Positions 1 through 18,342 of a stretch of DNA of 62,321 bases are shown piece by piece. The first letter of the stretch is position 1. The number at the start of each line of letters is the position of its first letter. Location of the stretch: assembly GCA_947373105.1 (NCBI GenBank), contig CANBWK010000006.1, positions 1-62,321 on the forward strand, written 5' to 3'. This DNA comes from Comamonadaceae bacterium. GTDB taxonomy: Bacteria; Pseudomonadota; Gammaproteobacteria; Burkholderiales; Burkholderiaceae_C. The notes beneath the pieces are model-generated. The model ran no database searches, was not told the DNA's origin, and was given only the letters and a program-made list of their open reading frames with translations. The position numbers and the translations under genes were made by a program.

Positions 1-389
1 ATCAGGGGAACACCACAGGCCAAAGCCAATTGCCGAGCCGAGGCTTTGTCGCCGAACAACTGCAAATGTGAAGCAGCAGGCCCAATGAAAGTGATGCCCG
101 CGTCCGCACAGGCTTGTGCAAAATCGGCGCGCTCGCTCAAAAATCCATAGCCTGGGTGGATCGCATCGCAATGCTGCTCCTTGGCAATGGCCAAGATCTT
201 GACTGAGTTGAGGTAGGCACCCGGGCCGCTGTCTTGCAGACTCACCGCAGCGCCAGCGAGTTGACAATGTAGCGCTTGTGCATCGTCCAGTGCGAACACG
301 GCCACACTCTCAATGTCCATGTCATGTGCAGCACGGATCAGGCGAACAGCGATTTCGCCGCGGTTGGCGATCAAGATTTTTTTGAACAT
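1..389 (-). CDS. Biotin carboxylase N-terminal part of an acyl-/acetyl-CoA carboxylase (partial)
   Basis: The reading frame starts with ATG at 389 and runs off the left edge without a stop, giving 129 residues. The N-terminus MFKKILIANRGEIAVRLIRA and the later HPGYGFLSE and FIGP segments are the biotin-carboxylase N-domain signature; this domain precedes the ATP-grasp domain that carboxylates biotin with bicarbonate and ATP. The sequence looks less like a standalone AccC than like biotin-dependent carboxylases with fused domains, but the fragment cannot decide that or the acyl-CoA substrate. It follows the reductive dehalogenase on the same strand after 187 bases with no clear terminator, so co-transcription is possible but unproven. 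Confidence 0.88.
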   Translation of the reverse strand, partial: MFKKILIANRGEIAVRLIRAAHDMDIESVAVFALDDAQALHCQLAGAAVSLQDSGPGAYLNSVKILAIAKEQHCDAIHPGYGFLSERADFAQACADAGITFIGPAASHLQLFGDKASARQLALACGVPL

Positions 390-576: not shown

Positions 577-2658
577 TTATTTTTGCCGCTTTTTGGCTTG
601 ACTAGGCTTCTCGGCATCAGCATATGCTTTAAGTCCGGCTTCACGATCCAGCAACACACTACTTGTAACGGTCGTACCCAAAGGTGGTTGCAAATGGGGT
701 GGGAAAAAAGCTAATTTTTGGTTTTGAGCGAGTTTATTTGTTCGATCTAAATCTAAATCACGTTCGTTCACGCCGCTAGGCGAAACACACACGCCGTTGA
801 TCATTTCCAAATCAAACCACCACCGCTTAACGGAATTGCGCATGCCTGCGCCTATGTGATCGTCAAAATCAATTAACGCTCTGCGCGCGCTTGGAACATG
901 GATTGATAGTTCAAGAAGACGCGTCGATTCAACCAAATCCTCTCTGTTGTAGGGGCAGGTTTTCATACACCGCCCACAGGCCGAGCCCTTCATGTTGGTT
1001 AAGCGGTACTTACCGCATTTTTCAACATCGGGTTTCCATATTTCATAGCCATTGAACATAACCTTAGGGCCAAAAGGAATGGCGTTGCAGGGACATTCAC
1101 GCGCGCACTTAAGGCACATGCTGCAGACCGATTGCAAACCGAAATCAATGGGTTGATCAAATGCCAAGGGTAAGTCGGTGGTCAGCAAAACACTCTTTGA
1201 TCGAGGCCCAATGAAAGGGTTTAAAACCAGCTCACCAATGCGAGAGAGCTCGCCGAGACCAGCCAACAAAGTTGCTGGAATGTGCAAGATATCTGATTCT
1301 GCGTTGGTGTGTGCACGCGAGGAAAAACCTAGGCGGCGTAAATGAGCGCCCATGACACCCGCTATAAAGGCGCCGCGCATGTAGCCCCGCATGGACTGAG
1401 CGCCGGAAATCCAATCGTCTCCCGAAGCACCTTCCATGGTCTCAAATCCTTGGTCAAGCAACATCACAATGCAGTGCTTGTGGCGGGGCTCGATGGGCTT
1501 GCCTTGTTGTGCCTCGTGTGAATAAAACATCCACGGTTCTGCTTCACAAATGCCCACCAAATCAGCGCCTAAGAAATATGCCAAGGCTTTGATGGACTCT
1601 GCATTTTTTTGGGGATCAGACAACTGCCCATTTCCATTTGCAGGCACAAGACGCTCGTAAGTTCCTTGCAGGGGCACCATGTTGCGTATCAAGGGCGTCA
1701 TGGCAAAAGCCAGCGGATGTTTTGTGGCAAAGCGAATGCGCTGCACCTTGGCTTTTTCCCCTAAATCGCCTGCCATTGCTCGCGTAAATAAATCGGCACG
1801 TTTGCTGTTGCGAATGATCTCTTCACGAAGAATCAGCGTTGTGGGCTCTGGTACCCGCTTCAATGTTTCCATGGGGTAGCGCCCCAAATGAAATGGGCGC
1901 AATTCGGATTCCGATTGAGCCCACCCAGGACGAGTGCCGGATTTGCCCATGTATGCGTTGGAATCAGGCCAATCTATGGAGGCGTTAGGCGCTATTGGAA
2001 GATCAATCTCTAAAGGCAAATCAGTGCTGATAGCTGCTAAAGCAAAGCCGCAGTTTAAAAAAGGCATTTTGAGCAAGCCGTTTTCAGACCGAGTAATGCC
2101 AGCGCGTTGCGACAAAACCTCTAAATTTAAAAGTGTGTTGCCCGCAACATGGCCTCGCGCGCTATATCCCAATGCGCGAACATAACCTGCCAATACGACA
2201 GCCACTTCGGTGGCGCGAGCATCTGTTCGGGCTTTGTTGCTGCCATGAATCCAAGAGGCACCAGGTGCATCTGACTTCGGCTCACGGCTGAACTCAATGA
2301 GAAAAATCAGTGCATGGGAATGCTTAAGAGAGCTTTTTACAAAGTCAGTGGTATCAACAGCGCATACACCTGCAAGCGTTGCATCTAAAAAATAGGCACT
2401 CGCTTTAAGATTTTTGCTACGAATACTTAAATCTTCTGGCAAGGGCGCGCGGGCATTGGCCCTCTCGCCATCCAAGTACTGCTCAAAAAGAGTTTGATAT
2501 GTTCCCAAGGCATCGTTTAGCGAATTCGGACCAGCCAAATATTGATCCTTGGGTGACGCAGCCTTGGGCTCTGGGGCGCCAACATCTCGAGCTATCAATT
2601 CTGTGGGTAAATCACCCATGTCGAAGTGTCGGTGTCGATTTGAGAATAAGCGGGTCAT
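577..2658 (-). CDS. Cytosolic NpRdhA-type reductive dehalogenase (cobalamin, two 4Fe-4S)
   Basis: The 693-residue protein matches the oxygen-tolerant catabolic reductive dehalogenases, which remove halide from aromatic rings using cob(II)alamin and two iron-sulfur clusters. Cluster cysteines are C512, C515, C518, C522 and C548, C561, C564, C568. Tyr426, Lys488 and Arg552 fall exactly at the numbers I recall for the active site of Nitratireductor NpRdhA, implying almost no indels up to that point. There is no twin-arginine signal and no rdhB anchor gene, so it should be cytosolic. It ends soon after the Fe-S domain, so no reductase domain is fused and electrons must come from another protein. 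Residues 80-220 look like a cofactor-free duplicate of 353-503. ATG start; ribosome-binding site weak. Substrate, likely a halogenated phenol or hydroxybenzoate, is inference. Confidence 0.88.
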   Translation of the reverse strand: MTRLFSNRHRHFDMGDLPTELIARDVGAPEPKAASPKDQYLAGPNSLNDALGTYQTLFEQYLDGERANARAPLPEDLSIRSKNLKASAYFLDATLAGVCAVDTTDFVKSSLKHSHALIFLIEFSREPKSDAPGASWIHGSNKARTDARATEVAVVLAGYVRALGYSARGHVAGNTLLNLEVLSQRAGITRSENGLLKMPFLNCGFALAAISTDLPLEIDLPIAPNASIDWPDSNAYMGKSGTRPGWAQSESELRPFHLGRYPMETLKRVPEPTTLILREEIIRNSKRADLFTRAMAGDLGEKAKVQRIRFATKHPLAFAMTPLIRNMVPLQGTYERLVPANGNGQLSDPQKNAESIKALAYFLGADLVGICEAEPWMFYSHEAQQGKPIEPRHKHCIVMLLDQGFETMEGASGDDWISGAQSMRGYMRGAFIAGVMGAHLRRLGFSSRAHTNAESDILHIPATLLAGLGELSRIGELVLNPFIGPRSKSVLLTTDLPLAFDQPIDFGLQSVCSMCLKCARECPCNAIPFGPKVMFNGYEIWKPDVEKCGKYRLTNMKGSACGRCMKTCPYNREDLVESTRLLELSIHVPSARRALIDFDDHIGAGMRNSVKRWWFDLEMINGVCVSPSGVNERDLDLDRTNKLAQNQKLAFFPPHLQPPLGTTVTSSVLLDREAGLKAYADAEKPSQAKKRQK

Positions 2659-2880: not shown

Positions 2881-2919
2881 AAGAAGAAAGGACTTAGCCC
2901 CTTGCGAAGCTAAGTCCTT
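2881..2919 (-). terminator. Rho-independent terminator after tRNA-Pro
   Basis: On the minus strand an 11-base-pair stem (arms 2888-2898 and 2909-2919) is followed by a T-rich tail TTTCTTCTTT, just downstream of the tRNA 3' end. It should end the tRNA transcript before the reductive dehalogenase promoter. Confidence 0.8.
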
Positions 2920-2927
2920 GATTCATA

Positions 2928-3004
2928 TGGTCGGCGTGGCGGGATTCGAACTCGCGACCCCTTGCACCCCATGCAAGTGCGCTACCAGGCTGCGCTACAC
3001 GCCG
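2928..3004 (-). tRNA. tRNA-Pro (anticodon GGG), CCA encoded
   Basis: The 77-base minus-strand gene folds as a cloverleaf: acceptor CGGCGTG pairs with CACGCCG, the D-loop holds GCCTGGTAGC, the anticodon stem CTTGC/GCAAG encloses ATGGGGT with anticodon GGG, the T-arm holds GTTCGAATC, and CCA is encoded at 2928-2930. It reads proline codons CCC/CCU. It sits downstream of the merR-like gene, with the reductive dehalogenase on its 3' side, where integrated DNA is commonly found. Confidence 0.97.
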
Positions 3005-3036: not shown

Positions 3037-3507
3037 TTAAAGCGCCAAAAGCTCTCGGATTTCAAACAATTCTCTGCGCAGACTGACCCATTCCGAATCA
3101 GACATTTCACCGCCATGAAAGCTGATTTGCGGCGAAGGGTATCCGCCCATTGGGCGCTTCTCGTTTGACTCAGAATGATGCTCTTCATTAAGAGGCATTT
3201 CCAGATCGTCAGCAGTGTGTTGCCCGTTTTTTCGACCCTCCCGTTGCGATTGCAGGAGTTCTTGGAGTTGATTACGGGCACCACTGATGGTGAAGCCTTG
3301 CGAATACAAGAGGTCCGAGATACGCCGAATCATCAGCACTTCGTGATGCTGGTAGTACCTGCGGTTGCCCCGTCGCTTGACGGGCCGAAGCTGCGTGAAT
3401 TCCTGCTCCCAGTACCGAAGCACATGCGGCTTGACATCGCACAGCTCGCCAACTTCACCGATCGTGAAGTAGCGTTTGGTTGGTATGGGCGGGAGTAACT
3501 TCTCCAT
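3037..3507 (-). CDS. MerR-family transcriptional regulator downstream of ihfA
   Basis: A 156-residue protein with an N-terminal winged helix-turn-helix: FTIGEVGELCDV, HVLRYWEQEF and the RRGNRRYY wing cover roughly residues 14-62, followed by a coiled-coil dimerisation region. The C-terminal part lacks a cysteine-based metal site, so the ligand is unknown. It follows ihfA on the same strand, an arrangement widely conserved in Beta- and Gammaproteobacteria, which marks it as part of the pheST-ihfA locus rather than a metal-resistance regulator. The ATG at 3507 directly precedes the domain; the ribosome-binding site is weak. Confidence 0.88.
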   Translation of the reverse strand: MEKLLPPIPTKRYFTIGEVGELCDVKPHVLRYWEQEFTQLRPVKRRGNRRYYQHHEVLMIRRISDLLYSQGFTISGARNQLQELLQSQREGRKNGQHTADDLEMPLNEEHHSESNEKRPMGGYPSPQISFHGGEMSDSEWVSLRRELFEIRELLAL

Positions 3508-14323: not shown

Positions 14324-16051
14324 TCATTTTTTTAGCGCTGCATCTGTCATTGCGCTGAGGGTGCCACGCGTGGTGATGACTTCAGGGTTGAGGGTCACTT
14401 CAATCAAAGTACCTTGCTCGCGGGCCAGGGCAGCGAGCAAAGCGGCTTCAAATTCTGCAGTGCGTGAAATGCGTGTTCCCACATAACCATAGGCTTGCGC
14501 CAAAGCAGCAAAATCAGGGTTCATCAAACTCGATCCCGATATGTGCTTGGGGTATTCGCGTTCCTGATGCATCCGAATGGTGCCGTACATCCCGTTGTTC
14601 AGCAAAACGATGATGCTTTTGGCACCGTGTTGCACCGCAGTAGCCAACTCCTGGCCGTTCATCAAAAAGTCACCGTCGCCAGCAATGGTAAAAACCACCC
14701 TGCCCGTCAAAATGGCCGCAGCAATACCTGCTGGCACGCCGTAGCCCATGGCACCCACTGTAGGTGCCAGCTGTGTTTTATGCCCTTTCACGAGCCCATG
14801 GTGCTTGAAATAGCGGTGCACCCAACTTGCAAAGTTTCCGGCCCCGTTGGTCAGTACCGCATCGCTGGGAAGGTGTTTTTGCAGCGTTGCAATGACCGCG
14901 GGCATATCAACCAATCCTGCCTCGTTGTCCGCGGGCAGACCTGCCAAGGGCTGAGGCAAGACATTGGCTTCGTATTCCGCATGAATTTCATGTGTCCAGG
15001 ACTCCCATGGCAATGATGTGGGAGCGGTCAGCACCTCCAAACTGCGTGCAGCCGCATTCATGGTCGCGCACAAGGCCAGATCGGCTTGGTAGACACGGTT
15101 CAACTCTTCAGCGCTGGCATGAATGTGCACCAGCTTCTGAACCGGCTTGGGTGGGACCAACAAGGTATATCCGCCCGTCGTCATTTCCCCCAAACGAGGG
15201 CCAATCGCAATGATCAAATCGCTGTTTTTGATACGCGCCGCCAGCTTGGGATTGATACCGATACCGACGTCTCCCGCGTACTGAGGGTGGAAATTATCAA
15301 AAGTGTCCTGAAAACGAAATGCATTGCCAACGGGCAGCTTCCAGTTTTCCGCAAATCGCTGCAAAGCTTGCGCAGATTGAGGCGTCCAACCACCGCCACC
15401 GGCAATCACGAAGGGCCGCTCTGCTTGCAGCAGCATTTCACGCAGACGGCGCAAGGCCCCCGGGTCGCTCCAAGCTTCAACAGCCTCGACGCGAGCCAGG
15501 GGCTGGACTTGAACCATATGCGTCAGCATGTCCTCAGGCAGGACCAGCACCACAGGACCCGGGCGCCCGTTCATGGCAGTGGCAAAGGCTCGGGCAACGT
15601 ACTCTGGAATCCGCTTTGCATCGTCAATGCGTTCAACCCGCTTGGCCATGCCTTTGGTGCTGGGTCCAAAAAATGCGCAAAAGTCGACTTCTTGAAAAGC
15701 CTCGCGATCGCGGGTGTCACTGGCCACATCGCCGACAAACAAGACCATCGGGGTTGAATCCTGAAATGCCGTATGGATTCCAATGGACGCATTGGTGGCC
15801 CCCGGGCCTCGGGTGACAAAGCACACGCCAGGTCGGCCAGTCAAGCGCCCCTGCGCGTCGGCCATATAAGCGGCACCGCCTTCTTGTCGACAGGTGACAA
15901 ACTGAATACGCTCAGCGTGCGCATGAAACCCATCGAGCACCGCCAGATAACTTTCGCCAGGTACACCAAAGGCATGCGTAACGCCTTGTGCGATCAGACA
16001 GTCGACCAGCAAGTGGCCAGCCATGACGGGTTGTATTTCGGTAGTATTCAT
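14324..16051 (-). CDS. Thiamine-diphosphate-dependent enzyme of the acetolactate synthase superfamily
   Basis: 575 residues with the three-domain layout of ThDP enzymes such as acetolactate synthase, benzoylformate decarboxylase and oxalyl-CoA decarboxylase. Glu57 in CRQEGGAAYMADAQG is the cofactor-activating glutamate; the ThDP/Mg motif is GDGDFLMNGQEL followed by VLLNN. It is annotated commonly as acetolactate synthase-like, but no small subunit gene is adjacent, so a role in branched-chain amino acid synthesis is doubtful. It diverges from an SMP-30-like gene, which hints at sugar-acid or 2-oxoacid catabolism. Substrate unknown. Confidence 0.85.
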   Translation of the reverse strand: MNTTEIQPVMAGHLLVDCLIAQGVTHAFGVPGESYLAVLDGFHAHAERIQFVTCRQEGGAAYMADAQGRLTGRPGVCFVTRGPGATNASIGIHTAFQDSTPMVLFVGDVASDTRDREAFQEVDFCAFFGPSTKGMAKRVERIDDAKRIPEYVARAFATAMNGRPGPVVLVLPEDMLTHMVQVQPLARVEAVEAWSDPGALRRLREMLLQAERPFVIAGGGGWTPQSAQALQRFAENWKLPVGNAFRFQDTFDNFHPQYAGDVGIGINPKLAARIKNSDLIIAIGPRLGEMTTGGYTLLVPPKPVQKLVHIHASAEELNRVYQADLALCATMNAAARSLEVLTAPTSLPWESWTHEIHAEYEANVLPQPLAGLPADNEAGLVDMPAVIATLQKHLPSDAVLTNGAGNFASWVHRYFKHHGLVKGHKTQLAPTVGAMGYGVPAGIAAAILTGRVVFTIAGDGDFLMNGQELATAVQHGAKSIIVLLNNGMYGTIRMHQEREYPKHISGSSLMNPDFAALAQAYGYVGTRISRTAEFEAALLAALAREQGTLIEVTLNPEVITTRGTLSAMTDAALKK

Positions 16052-16192
16052 GCTTTTCTCTCAGTAAGTTGCCTATGAGATTAGCAGAATCTGCCCCTTG
16101 TCGAAAACCCGTACCTCAACCTGCGGGAACACAGGTGACAGACTAGAAGAAAGAAGTTACAGACACTGAAACCAACACACAAGGAGAAACGC

Positions 16193-17122
16193 ATGAAAAT
16201 ACGCGAAATTGCTTCGGGACTGCAATTCCCAGAGGGCCCGATTGCCATGGACGATGGCTCGGTATTGTTGGTTGAAATTGCCCGCGGCACCCTGACACGT
16301 GTCACGCCAGATGGCAAAGTCTCTGTAGTGGCTGATTTGGGGGGTGGGCCCAACGGTGCAGCCATTGGACCTGATGGTGCGGTCTATATTTGCAACAACG
16401 GTGGATTCAACTACACCACAGAGTCAGATGGGTGCTTCAGGCCCATCGGTCAAGCCAACGATTACAGTGGCGGGCGCATCGAGAGGGTTAACCTGAACAC
16501 GGGCAAGTTCGATCGGCTTTATGACACCGTAGAAGGCTTGGGTCTTCGGGGACCCAATGACATTGTGTTTGATACCCATGGTGGTTTTTATTTTTCGGAT
16601 TTAGGTAAAGCACGGCACAGCGATATGGACCGGGGTGGGATTTATTACGGCACCTCCCATGGTGCGTCTGCGAGCGTGATTGCCAGGCCAGTGATGACAC
16701 CCAATGGCATTGCCCTTTCACCAGATGGCCAGACCCTTTATTACGCAGAAACCGAAGGCGCCAGAGTCTGGGCTTTTGATGTAACAGGCGCGGGTCAGGT
16801 CCGCAAAGAGGGTTGGCCATCTCCCCAAGGCGCACGCATGATCGCTGCATCACCTGGCGGGCTTTATCAGCGCTTTGATTCCATGGCTGTAGATGCATTG
16901 GGCAATGTGTGCGTGGCGACTTTGATGCACGGCGGTATCACCATCATTTCACCCGACGGCAAACTACAGTCACACGTCAGCTTGCCAGACCGATTTACCA
17001 CCAACTTGTGTTTTGGCGGGCCAGACAACCGAACGGTCTTTGTGACCTTGTCGGGCAGCGGCAAACTGATCGCCATTGACGAATGGCCGGTACCAGGCCT
17101 GACACTCAATTACCCGGCCTGA
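16193..17122 (+). CDS. SMP-30/gluconolactonase-family lactone hydrolase
   Basis: 309 residues forming a six-bladed beta-propeller of the SMP-30/gluconolactonase type, which hydrolyses lactones with a divalent metal. Likely metal ligands are Glu14 (QFPEGP), Asn122 (GPNDIVFD), Asn171 (TPNGIALS) and Asp229 (FDSMAVDALGN). AAGGAG lies seven bases before the ATG. It is divergent from the ThDP enzyme and overlaps the MFS gene tail to tail by 13 bases. Substrate could be an aldonolactone or another lactone; the sequence cannot tell. Confidence 0.85.
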   Translation: MKIREIASGLQFPEGPIAMDDGSVLLVEIARGTLTRVTPDGKVSVVADLGGGPNGAAIGPDGAVYICNNGGFNYTTESDGCFRPIGQANDYSGGRIERVNLNTGKFDRLYDTVEGLGLRGPNDIVFDTHGGFYFSDLGKARHSDMDRGGIYYGTSHGASASVIARPVMTPNGIALSPDGQTLYYAETEGARVWAFDVTGAGQVRKEGWPSPQGARMIAASPGGLYQRFDSMAVDALGNVCVATLMHGGITIISPDGKLQSHVSLPDRFTTNLCFGGPDNRTVFVTLSGSGKLIAIDEWPVPGLTLNYPA

Positions 17123-18342
17123 ACCTGCACCGTCTTACGCCCCACGCCCAAGGCGACTCCCACGCTGAGCATCAACACCGCTGAGGCGCAAGCCAAAGTG
17201 GCGCTGTACCAGCCACGGTCCATGAAAGCACCAAAGACAAGAGGCGAGACCGCAAACCCAACGTCAAAACCCGAGTACACCAAGCCGTACATGCGGCCTG
17301 TGGCGCCTTGGGGCGTGGCTTTTTTAATCATCAAGTCACGACTGGGCCCGCCAATGCCGACGGCGAAACCTGTAAAGGCCAACACCGCCATCGTACCGAA
17401 TGCACCTAGCCAACCACTGGCGCACAAGGCAAGCAACACGGCACCGCCACACATGCTACTGGCCACAATGCGGTCGCTTCGAAAAGGCCAACGGGAAGCT
17501 ACAAAACCCCCAGCAAGCACCCCGAAGGCACTGCAAAGCATATAAACGGTGAGGGTCAGCGTAGCGGCCTCAAAACTGACTTGATGCAAGGCTTGAAGAA
17601 TAGGCAAAGAAAAATTTTGAACCACAGCCAATGTGACAGTTGACAATAAAAAGAAGCAAAAACACCACCACACCACAGGCAGCCGCATGAACGCCATGTC
17701 GTGGCCTCGGGGTAGATTGACTTGCTTTTTAACAGTACAGGTGAGCAGTTTCTCGCGGTTAAACAACATCAAAGCCAAAATGAGTAAATACAAAAACGCT
17801 GCAGCTGTGTAGGCAGCTCTCCAATCGAACATCGTCGTCATAACCCCCATAAATATGGGTGCCGCAGCCCAGCCTAGATTGCCCGTCAAACCGTGCACGC
17901 TAAAAGCATATCCAATGCGCGCGCTTGAGATGCGTTGATTCAAAATAGTGAAGTCCAAGGGGTGAAAAGCACAGTTACCCAAACCGGCCAGCACGGCCAC
18001 CAGCATCATGGCTGGGTAACTGTTGGCCACTGATGCGAGCAAGCACGCTAGAGCAAATAGACCCAATGCGGTAAACAAGATAGGCCTGGCACCCAAACGG
18101 TCCACAACAAAACCCGAGCAGGCCTGACCGGCACCCGAGACCACAAAAAAAAGTGAACTCATCATGCCAAGCTCAGAATACGTCCAACCGAACTCCCTCA
18201 TGAAAACAGGGAACATCAGAGGCAACAGCAAATGCGCGAAATGGGAACTTGCGTGCGATAACCCCACCAAGGCCATGATGATGGCATCTTCACGCAATGG
18301 CGCGCTCGCCGGTGTTGTCGACGCAGCGGAAAGAGTGGTCAT
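17110..18342 (-). CDS. MFS transporter
   Basis: 410 residues with about 12 hydrophobic segments in two halves and the loop 2-3 pattern GFVVDRLGARPILF typical of the major facilitator superfamily. The first about 16 residues are polar. It overlaps the SMP-30-like gene by 13 bases at the 3' ends. Cargo is unknown; neighbours suggest an organic acid, sugar acid or related small molecule. Confidence 0.88.
   Translation of the reverse strand: MTTLSAASTTPASAPLREDAIIMALVGLSHASSHFAHLLLPLMFPVFMREFGWTYSELGMMSSLFFVVSGAGQACSGFVVDRLGARPILFTALGLFALACLLASVANSYPAMMLVAVLAGLGNCAFHPLDFTILNQRISSARIGYAFSVHGLTGNLGWAAAPIFMGVMTTMFDWRAAYTAAAFLYLLILALMLFNREKLLTCTVKKQVNLPRGHDMAFMRLPVVWWCFCFFLLSTVTLAVVQNFSLPILQALHQVSFEAATLTLTVYMLCSAFGVLAGGFVASRWPFRSDRIVASSMCGGAVLLALCASGWLGAFGTMAVLAFTGFAVGIGGPSRDLMIKKATPQGATGRMYGLVYSGFDVGFAVSPLVFGAFMDRGWYSATLACASAVLMLSVGVALGVGRKTVQVQAG

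Follow-up and report, generated by a model that had tools for sequence, protein, structure and literature searches.

The question raised by the 62,321-nucleotide stretch of contig CANBWK010000006.1 (assembly GCA_947373105.1, Comamonadaceae bacterium; the whole stretch is referred to below as the window) is what a reductive dehalogenase gene, rdhA (577..2658, minus strand), might be doing in such a genome. An initial inspection of the DNA letters (the sequence-only reading) had taken the gene product for a catabolic enzyme of the type of NpRdhA from Nitratireductor pacificus pht-3B, and had predicted the oxygen-tolerant removal of halogen from phenolic compounds in an otherwise ordinary aerobic heterotroph. 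The chemical part of this prediction is likely to hold: we consider it probable that rdhA encodes an intact cytoplasmic reductive dehalogenase with cobalamin and two 4Fe-4S clusters, which belongs to the stand-alone catabolic clade and most likely ortho-dehalogenates halophenols. The setting, on the other hand, proved less ordinary than had been supposed, given the frequency of the enzyme in the host genus and the shifting position of the solitary gene. The observations behind this view concern the sequence, individual residues, a modelled fold, purifying selection, the gene setting, an uptake operon with a B12 riboswitch, and the lack of a detectable CobS.

The identity of the gene was examined by open reading frame (ORF), profile, alignment, tree and model. 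The frame of rdhA is complete (ATG start, TAA stop) and encodes 693 amino acids (aa). On the NCBIfam reductive dehalogenase profile TIGR02486, the product scores 173.3 bits, above the curated cut-off of 160.35; NpRdhA itself scores 171.8 bits. A phmmer search of the PDB placed NpRdhA (6zxu/4ras) at the top with 898 bits (E ~1e-269), while the other two sequences listed, both tetrachloroethene dehalogenases, reached only 80 and 74 bits. In an end-to-end alignment with NpRdhA (PDB 4RAS, 6ZXU, 6ZXX and 6ZY1; reference sequence taken from contig L027 of N. pacificus pht-3B), 394 of 692 positions are identical (56.9%). Judged by sequence, this full-length 57% match is far beyond chance, and the window protein is a known type of enzyme, a close cousin of NpRdhA.

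The sequence-only reading had placed catalytic residues by counting, which presupposes an almost indel-free alignment. This was borne out: beyond an additional residue at the very beginning, the alignment is interrupted only twice, by one position each, at 107 and 628. Residues 108-628 of the window protein therefore share NpRdhA numbering, which explains why the counting worked. Tyr426 (codon 1381..1383), Lys488 (1195..1197) and Arg552 (1003..1005, all on the minus strand) occupy the columns of the same residues in NpRdhA, and PMC7565698 confirms the roles assigned to them in that reading, with Y426 as proton donor and K488 and R552 as hydroxyl ligands. In the window protein, Tyr426 is thus the predicted proton donor, Lys488 its predicted partner as well as a ligand of the phenol hydroxyl, and Arg552 a further predicted hydroxyl ligand. 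The eight cysteines of the two 4Fe-4S motifs (Cys512/515/518/522 and Cys548/561/564/568; 955..1125, minus strand) are all present, as had been claimed, and are kept in 91/91 distinct aligned homologues, an alignment from which two interrupted sequences (L011, L094) and the duplicate locus of the window (L081) were dropped and in which seven identical rows were collapsed. Profiles for 4Fe-4S proteins match residues 512-571 with scores below their cut-offs. The alignment with BhbA of Comamonas sp. 7D-2, another catabolic RdhA from Comamonadaceae, gave 39.7% identity over the shared part.

The conservation is uneven along the protein. The cobalamin and Fe-S catalytic core (residues 346-600; 859..1623, minus strand) is 71% identical to NpRdhA (181/255), and the N-terminal half (residues 1-270; 1849..2658, minus strand) is 43% identical (116/269); both boundaries are approximate. 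The latter is the counterpart of the vestigial non-cobalamin domain of NpRdhA described in excerpts of PMC10463259, and NpRdhA is covered end to end, this duplicated domain included. An AlphaFold2 model of the protein alone, computed without cofactors, can be superposed on 4ras (VIA-align; 682 residues, 1.8 A). PF13486 (Pfam) matched nothing in the window genome or in any of 14 control genomes; this silence reflects a weakness of the model for this branch, because NpRdhA is also unmatched.

A cytoplasmic location is suggested by several features. The absence of a twin-arginine signal, noted earlier, is upheld by a motif search, run without a dedicated signal-peptide program, in which residues 1-60 showed nothing resembling a Tat motif. 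The highest 19-residue Kyte-Doolittle mean is 1.25, so that there is no hydrophobic anchor, and no membrane-anchor gene was found among the genes adjoining rdhA, where alone it was looked for. The protein also has no C-terminal reductase, since the frame stops at residue 693 and the profile scans gave no Fer2 or flavin-reductase match.

The phylogenetic position agrees with this assignment. GTDB species contigs were scanned, which gave at least 586 stretches encoding relatives, and the best 80 loci were used. In a tree of 91 sequences, the window protein falls within a 29-member clade (local support 0.993), which adjoins an 8-member group with NpRdhA; the joint clade of 37 sequences has support 1.0, and 14 sequences of more than 850 aa fall outside it. 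Some relatives bear unexpected titles. An RdhA 87% identical to the window protein comes from an entry titled Bacteroidetes bacterium (L006), and two others, 67% and 59% identical, from entries titled Bordetella parapertussis (L017 and L065); these titles seem erroneous, unless the bins are mixed.

The enzyme type is unusually common in the Limnohabitans-type genus to which the host belongs. The window genome (G000) shares its genus with assemblies named Limnohabitans (G072, G049), a taxon placed in Comamonadaceae by NCBI. A catabolic RdhA or a remnant of one was found in 32 of 90 genomes of the genus, 15 with the stand-alone type, 17 with a fused type and none with both. Twelve of the stand-alone copies are full length and open, one (G064) is cut by a contig end, and two (G040 and G034, the latter also cut) are interrupted. 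The fused type comprises 15 frames of 1,076-1,128 aa and broken copies in two genomes; a C-terminal Fer2 match was present in all three of the frames scanned, over the cut-off in two. One of the remnants (G003, L118) consists of two adjacent parts with the middle missing, and the other (G029, L119) is frame-broken and runs to a contig end. Across the family, 12 of 399 evenly drawn genomes matched, including the window genome and G049; six same-genus genomes are visible in this list, which leaves 10/~393 for the rest of the family. The difference from the genus (Fisher p 9e-18) is a rough contrast, because the two surveys sample differently. The lack of overlap between the 15 and 17 carriers among 90 genomes has a P of 0.032 (0.050 with 15 and 15), so mutual exclusion of the two types is weakly supported, because the test ignores kinship and some assemblies are incomplete.

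From these data we infer the substrate, activity, oxygen tolerance, electron donor and cellular role of the enzyme. By transfer from NpRdhA, the halogen of the bound phenol would ligate Co(II), Lys488, Arg552 and Ser422 would hold the phenol hydroxyl, electrons would enter through the two Fe-S clusters, and Tyr426 would protonate the ring carbon. Ortho halogens would be removed, bromine or iodine first and perhaps chlorine, for example from 3,5-dihalo-4-hydroxybenzoate, and the dehalogenated phenol would then undergo aerobic ring cleavage. According to excerpts of PMC10463259, the catabolic RdhAs characterised by 2023 were all specific for ortho-halogenated phenols. PobA (4-hydroxybenzoate 3-monooxygenase) scores over the cut-off in 79 of the 90 genus genomes, including the window genome, so debrominated 4-hydroxybenzoate could be used; at this frequency, PobA does not single out the carriers of rdhA.

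The cell probably takes up its cobalamin instead of synthesising it. CobS was not detected in the window genome by profile search; it was present in 8/90 genus genomes and, among the 15 stand-alone carriers, in G084 only, and it was matched in 10 of 14 control genomes. The window genome encodes MetH. It also has a cobalamin riboswitch (76.3 bits) immediately ahead of a TonB receptor gene, and genes for a binding protein, a FecCD permease and an ATPase come next. On sequence grounds, this uptake operon and the lack of CobS fit B12 import, which agrees with the presence of btuB and salvage genes in metagenome-assembled genomes of Limnohabitans from Daphnia (PMC6971282, in excerpt).

The electrons would have to be delivered by another protein whose gene lies away from rdhA; within this genome, the best candidate is an unlinked ferredoxin with a ferredoxin reductase. 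In N. pacificus (L027), rdhA is followed by genes for a reductase, a 2Fe-2S ferredoxin and an FdxA-like ferredoxin, as PMC10463259 also reports; such an operon has been described for some members of the stand-alone type and does not define it. The window rdhA is, in contrast, solitary: no such operon was found beside it, or in the examined flanks of the 15 stand-alone carriers of the genus (simple ORF finding, several contigs being short). The window genome does encode an adjacent FdxA/reductase pair on another contig (G000:C84), with 52% and 47% identity to the N. pacificus counterparts.

Several observations count against parts of this interpretation. The AlphaFold2 confidence is low within the catalytic half (61-62 for residues 401-420, below 50 for 409-413, and 66-74 for 551-580). 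The TonB receptor reaches 356 bits against a curated BtuB cut-off of 599.7, which none of the 90 genus genomes passes, and three carriers (G006 and G007, 99-100% complete, and G084, 75%) have no strong BtuB-like match, which speaks against import as a general rule. The NpRdhA-type reductase is not specific to carriers, since 75/90 genus genomes have a strong homologue: 9/15 stand-alone carriers as against 66/75 other genomes, with G072, G056 and G064 (94-96% complete) among the six carriers that have none. As an obligate donor this reductase is thereby weakened, and it is a candidate rather than the answer. Moreover, PMC10463259 reports that combining NpRdhA in vitro with its native partners from N. 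pacificus did not reconstitute activity. JtRdhA, a fused relative, did not turn over chlorinated compounds, so chlorine removal should not be assumed. Finally, the pocket shares F291, F310, S422, M423, Y426, K488 and R552 with NpRdhA, but six residues differ: L290 (F in NpRdhA), R307 (K), A311 (P), G419 (A), A420 (S) and L491 (V). The substrate range may therefore differ from that of NpRdhA.

These pocket differences provide the starting point for the most durable of the alternatives, namely that the protein belongs to the class III cobalamin reductases but acts in nature on another ortho-substituted phenol or on a natural halo-compound beyond the halophenols tested so far. R307, A311, G419 and A420 are common to all 29 members of the clade and L290 occurs in 27 of them, and the neighbours of rdhA vary widely (transporters, sulfatase, haloacid dehalogenase (HAD) type II, glutathione S-transferase (GST)), so that no single pathway is indicated. 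Yet R307, A311 and G419 are also the usual states in more distant stand-alone relatives and by themselves are no mark of a new specificity; at position 419 NpRdhA itself may be the odd one out, as far as the alignment goes. In NpRdhA, A419 lines the second-halogen site, and the A419M variant shows a greater relative preference for substrates with one halogen (PMC7565698, section 3.5); Gly419 (codon 1402..1404, minus strand) would leave more room there. Since the residues that hold the hydroxyl and protonate the carbon are conserved, and the characterised enzymes act on ortho-halogenated phenols, we regard a different substrate class as unlikely.

A second alternative is that rdhA is an acquired gene of little or no present function, stranded without redox partners. 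Its solitary position would suit this view, as would its composition (GC3 of 0.48 compared with 0.63 for pheT; GC of 0.495 compared with 0.525 for the window, standard deviation 0.020) and the interrupted copies in two genomes of the genus. Against it stand the full-length open frame, the predominance of unbroken copies in the genus (12/15, with a thirteenth merely cut by a contig end) and the ratio of non-synonymous to synonymous substitution rates (dN/dS), which is 0.064-0.124 across 11 comparisons and indicates that the gene is maintained as a working protein. A gene without function is thus very improbable.

An artefact of assembly or binning might be suspected, as rdhA is located almost at the edge of its contig in a 207-contig assembly. 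However, the same contig carries merR and, by eye, pheT-, pheS-, rplT- and infC-like genes, and G072 is the closest relative by either gene (93% for pheT, 93% for rdhA), which makes this explanation scarcely credible. A respiratory reductive dehalogenase, like PceA of Sulfurospirillum multivorans (4UQU and related structures), which aligns mainly with model residues ~260-617, can be dismissed in view of the missing Tat motif, hydrophobic anchor and adjoining anchor gene, the extra N-terminal domain and the 57% identity to a non-respiratory enzyme.

With the functional dehalogenase as the preferred reading, we considered how the gene has been inherited. When five outgroups are included, the 13 genus copies compared group together, and the rdhA tree is partly congruent with that of pheT. 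The identities of the two genes are correlated (rho 0.54; 78 pairs, 13 genomes), with clear conflicts, e.g. G019 with G064; the comparison leaves out the interrupted copies of G040 and G034, and the pheT pieces of G064 and G074 are partial. Neither purely vertical descent nor free transfer fits this combination of partial correlation and conflict. From sequence comparison, we take the pattern to reflect an old acquisition, after which copies were lost, moved to other sites and in some cases transferred. The stand-alone gene occupies several different chromosomal sites within the genus. Flanks are shared by G019, G034, G032 and, via the same HAD region, G006; by G006 and G056, and upstream only by G006 and G013; and, downstream, by G032 and G040. 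For the remaining copies in the genus, whose contigs are in many cases short, the comparison revealed no close flank in common. In five genomes 87-90% identical by pheT (G082, G081, G083, G077 and G080), no rdhA was found, three of these assemblies being less than 90% complete. As for vehicles, no plasmid was found, the best plasmid match having only 39.7% identity (BhbA), and no phage match was obtained.

In the window, rdhA is separated from its neighbours by 269 bases upstream and 187 downstream. Downstream lies the start of a biotin-carboxylase-type gene (1..389, minus strand) cut by the contig end, whose NCBIfam carboxylase matches are all below the cut-off, as expected for a cut gene. 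Upstream are an intrinsic-terminator-like hairpin of 14 pairs found by consensus match (2888..2919), tRNA-Pro (GGG) (2928..3004) and a gene for a MerR-family regulator, which served as a synteny marker (3037..3507; all on the minus strand). The window holds 8 terminator-like sites against 3.3 +/- 2.0 in shuffled sequences, and no convincing promoter was found (2 found, 2.8 expected). The hairpin between tRNA-Pro and rdhA suggests that the latter is probably its own transcription unit.

The best 30 of the 84 genomes with a merR match, the window genome included, were compared at this locus (L120-L149). tRNA-Pro follows merR in 29 of the 30, and the remaining locus stops at a contig end. Beyond merR and tRNA-Pro, the sequence varies from one species group to the next, a pattern resembling that of a site prone to insertion. 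Among these 30 loci, only that of the window genome has rdhA after the tRNA gene; in G013 rdhA lies ~3 kb away on the other side of merR, and in G072 it sits on another contig, the place after tRNA-Pro being taken by a different gene. By eye, the window genome and G072 are similar outside rdhA for only ~100 bases upstream and ~50 downstream. No simple empty site was found at tRNA-Pro, and the downstream carboxylase gene had no match within up to 1.5 kb beyond merR in the 29 other loci. The window copy has no HAD, sulfatase or similar halo-organic neighbour. Farther along the window, a block at 14324-18342 contains, by eye, genes resembling those of a thiamine-pyrophosphate enzyme, SMP-30 and a major facilitator superfamily (MFS) transporter, amid mostly housekeeping-looking genes.

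A search for operon partners covered the flanks of 36 sequences (in 7 of which the simple ORF picker took another frame in place of rdhA), 32 loci (29 of them inspected) and 13 genus loci. No generally recurrent partner was seen in these flanks, although crude ORF pickers miss genes such as the N. pacificus reductase. Partly recurrent neighbours encode HAD type II, DM13, sulfatase with TctC, MFS and GST proteins. Genes for haloacid dehalogenase type II (TIGR01428, over the cut-off) lie within ~1.1 kb of rdhA in G019, G032, G006 and G034, three upstream and one downstream (L102:6955-7644, L104:11087-11782, L109:8595-9290 and L113:1436-1837, the last partial). This family is over the cut-off in 49/90 genus genomes. 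Because the loci are not independent of one another, a binomial estimate for the adjacency of HAD genes carries no weight here. GST-family genes are close to the HAD type II gene in G006 and G019. In G049, a sulfatase gene (L107:12932-14302) and TctC-type receptors (L107:8826-9812) were recognised near rdhA by Pfam, and sulfatase-like and TctC-type genes occur close to rdhA, in different order, in L023, L024 and L065 (BLAST similarity). The HAD and sulfatase/TctC neighbours are a hint of halo-organic catabolism, and sulfated halophenols are a possible source of substrate. DM13 proteins (PF10517, electron transfer DM13) are encoded directly beside rdhA in G006 (L109:9293-9790, over the cut-off) and G056 (L108:2009-2473, just at the cut-off). 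MFS-type transporter genes, assigned by eye, lie upstream on the same strand, at 12-107 bases in L012, L017 and L019 and at 1.4 kb in L010.

Among known systems, BhbA and self-sufficient fused enzymes such as JtRdhA (likened here by description only) carry a C-terminal reductase, according to excerpts of PMC10463259, whereas the window protein stops at residue 693. Six fused-type RdhAs of the same genus (L095-L100; 1,072-1,074 aa) belong to the same superfamily and have the same catalytic Tyr/Lys/Arg; they are 37.2-37.6% identical to the window protein, and none of the 15 stand-alone carriers was found to have this type. RdhAs of the order Burkholderiales are already in print: the tree legend of PMC10463259 includes JOSHI_001 and Noviherbaspirillum Root189, known here by name only. 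In excerpts of the open-licence literature, no RdhA was tied to Limnohabitans, a genus mentioned there as a community member.

The added interest of this locus therefore lies in the frequency of the enzyme in one freshwater genus and in the shifting position of a gene without partners. If active, it would place oxygen-compatible, B12-dependent removal of halophenols in freshwater plankton. The 15 stand-alone carriers, none with an operon like that of NpRdhA in the flanks examined, make it testable which host ferredoxins drive the enzyme. We tentatively suggest, as a possibility rather than an expectation, that catabolic reductive dehalogenation is a widespread trait in this genus of freshwater plankton bacteria, in which about one third of the sampled species have one of two non-co-occurring RdhA types, the stand-alone type being a nomadic single gene without partners that would use any host ferredoxin and B12 supplied by the community. 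If this is true, B12 would be the limiting factor when halophenols, natural or man-made, lose their halogens in oxic lake water.
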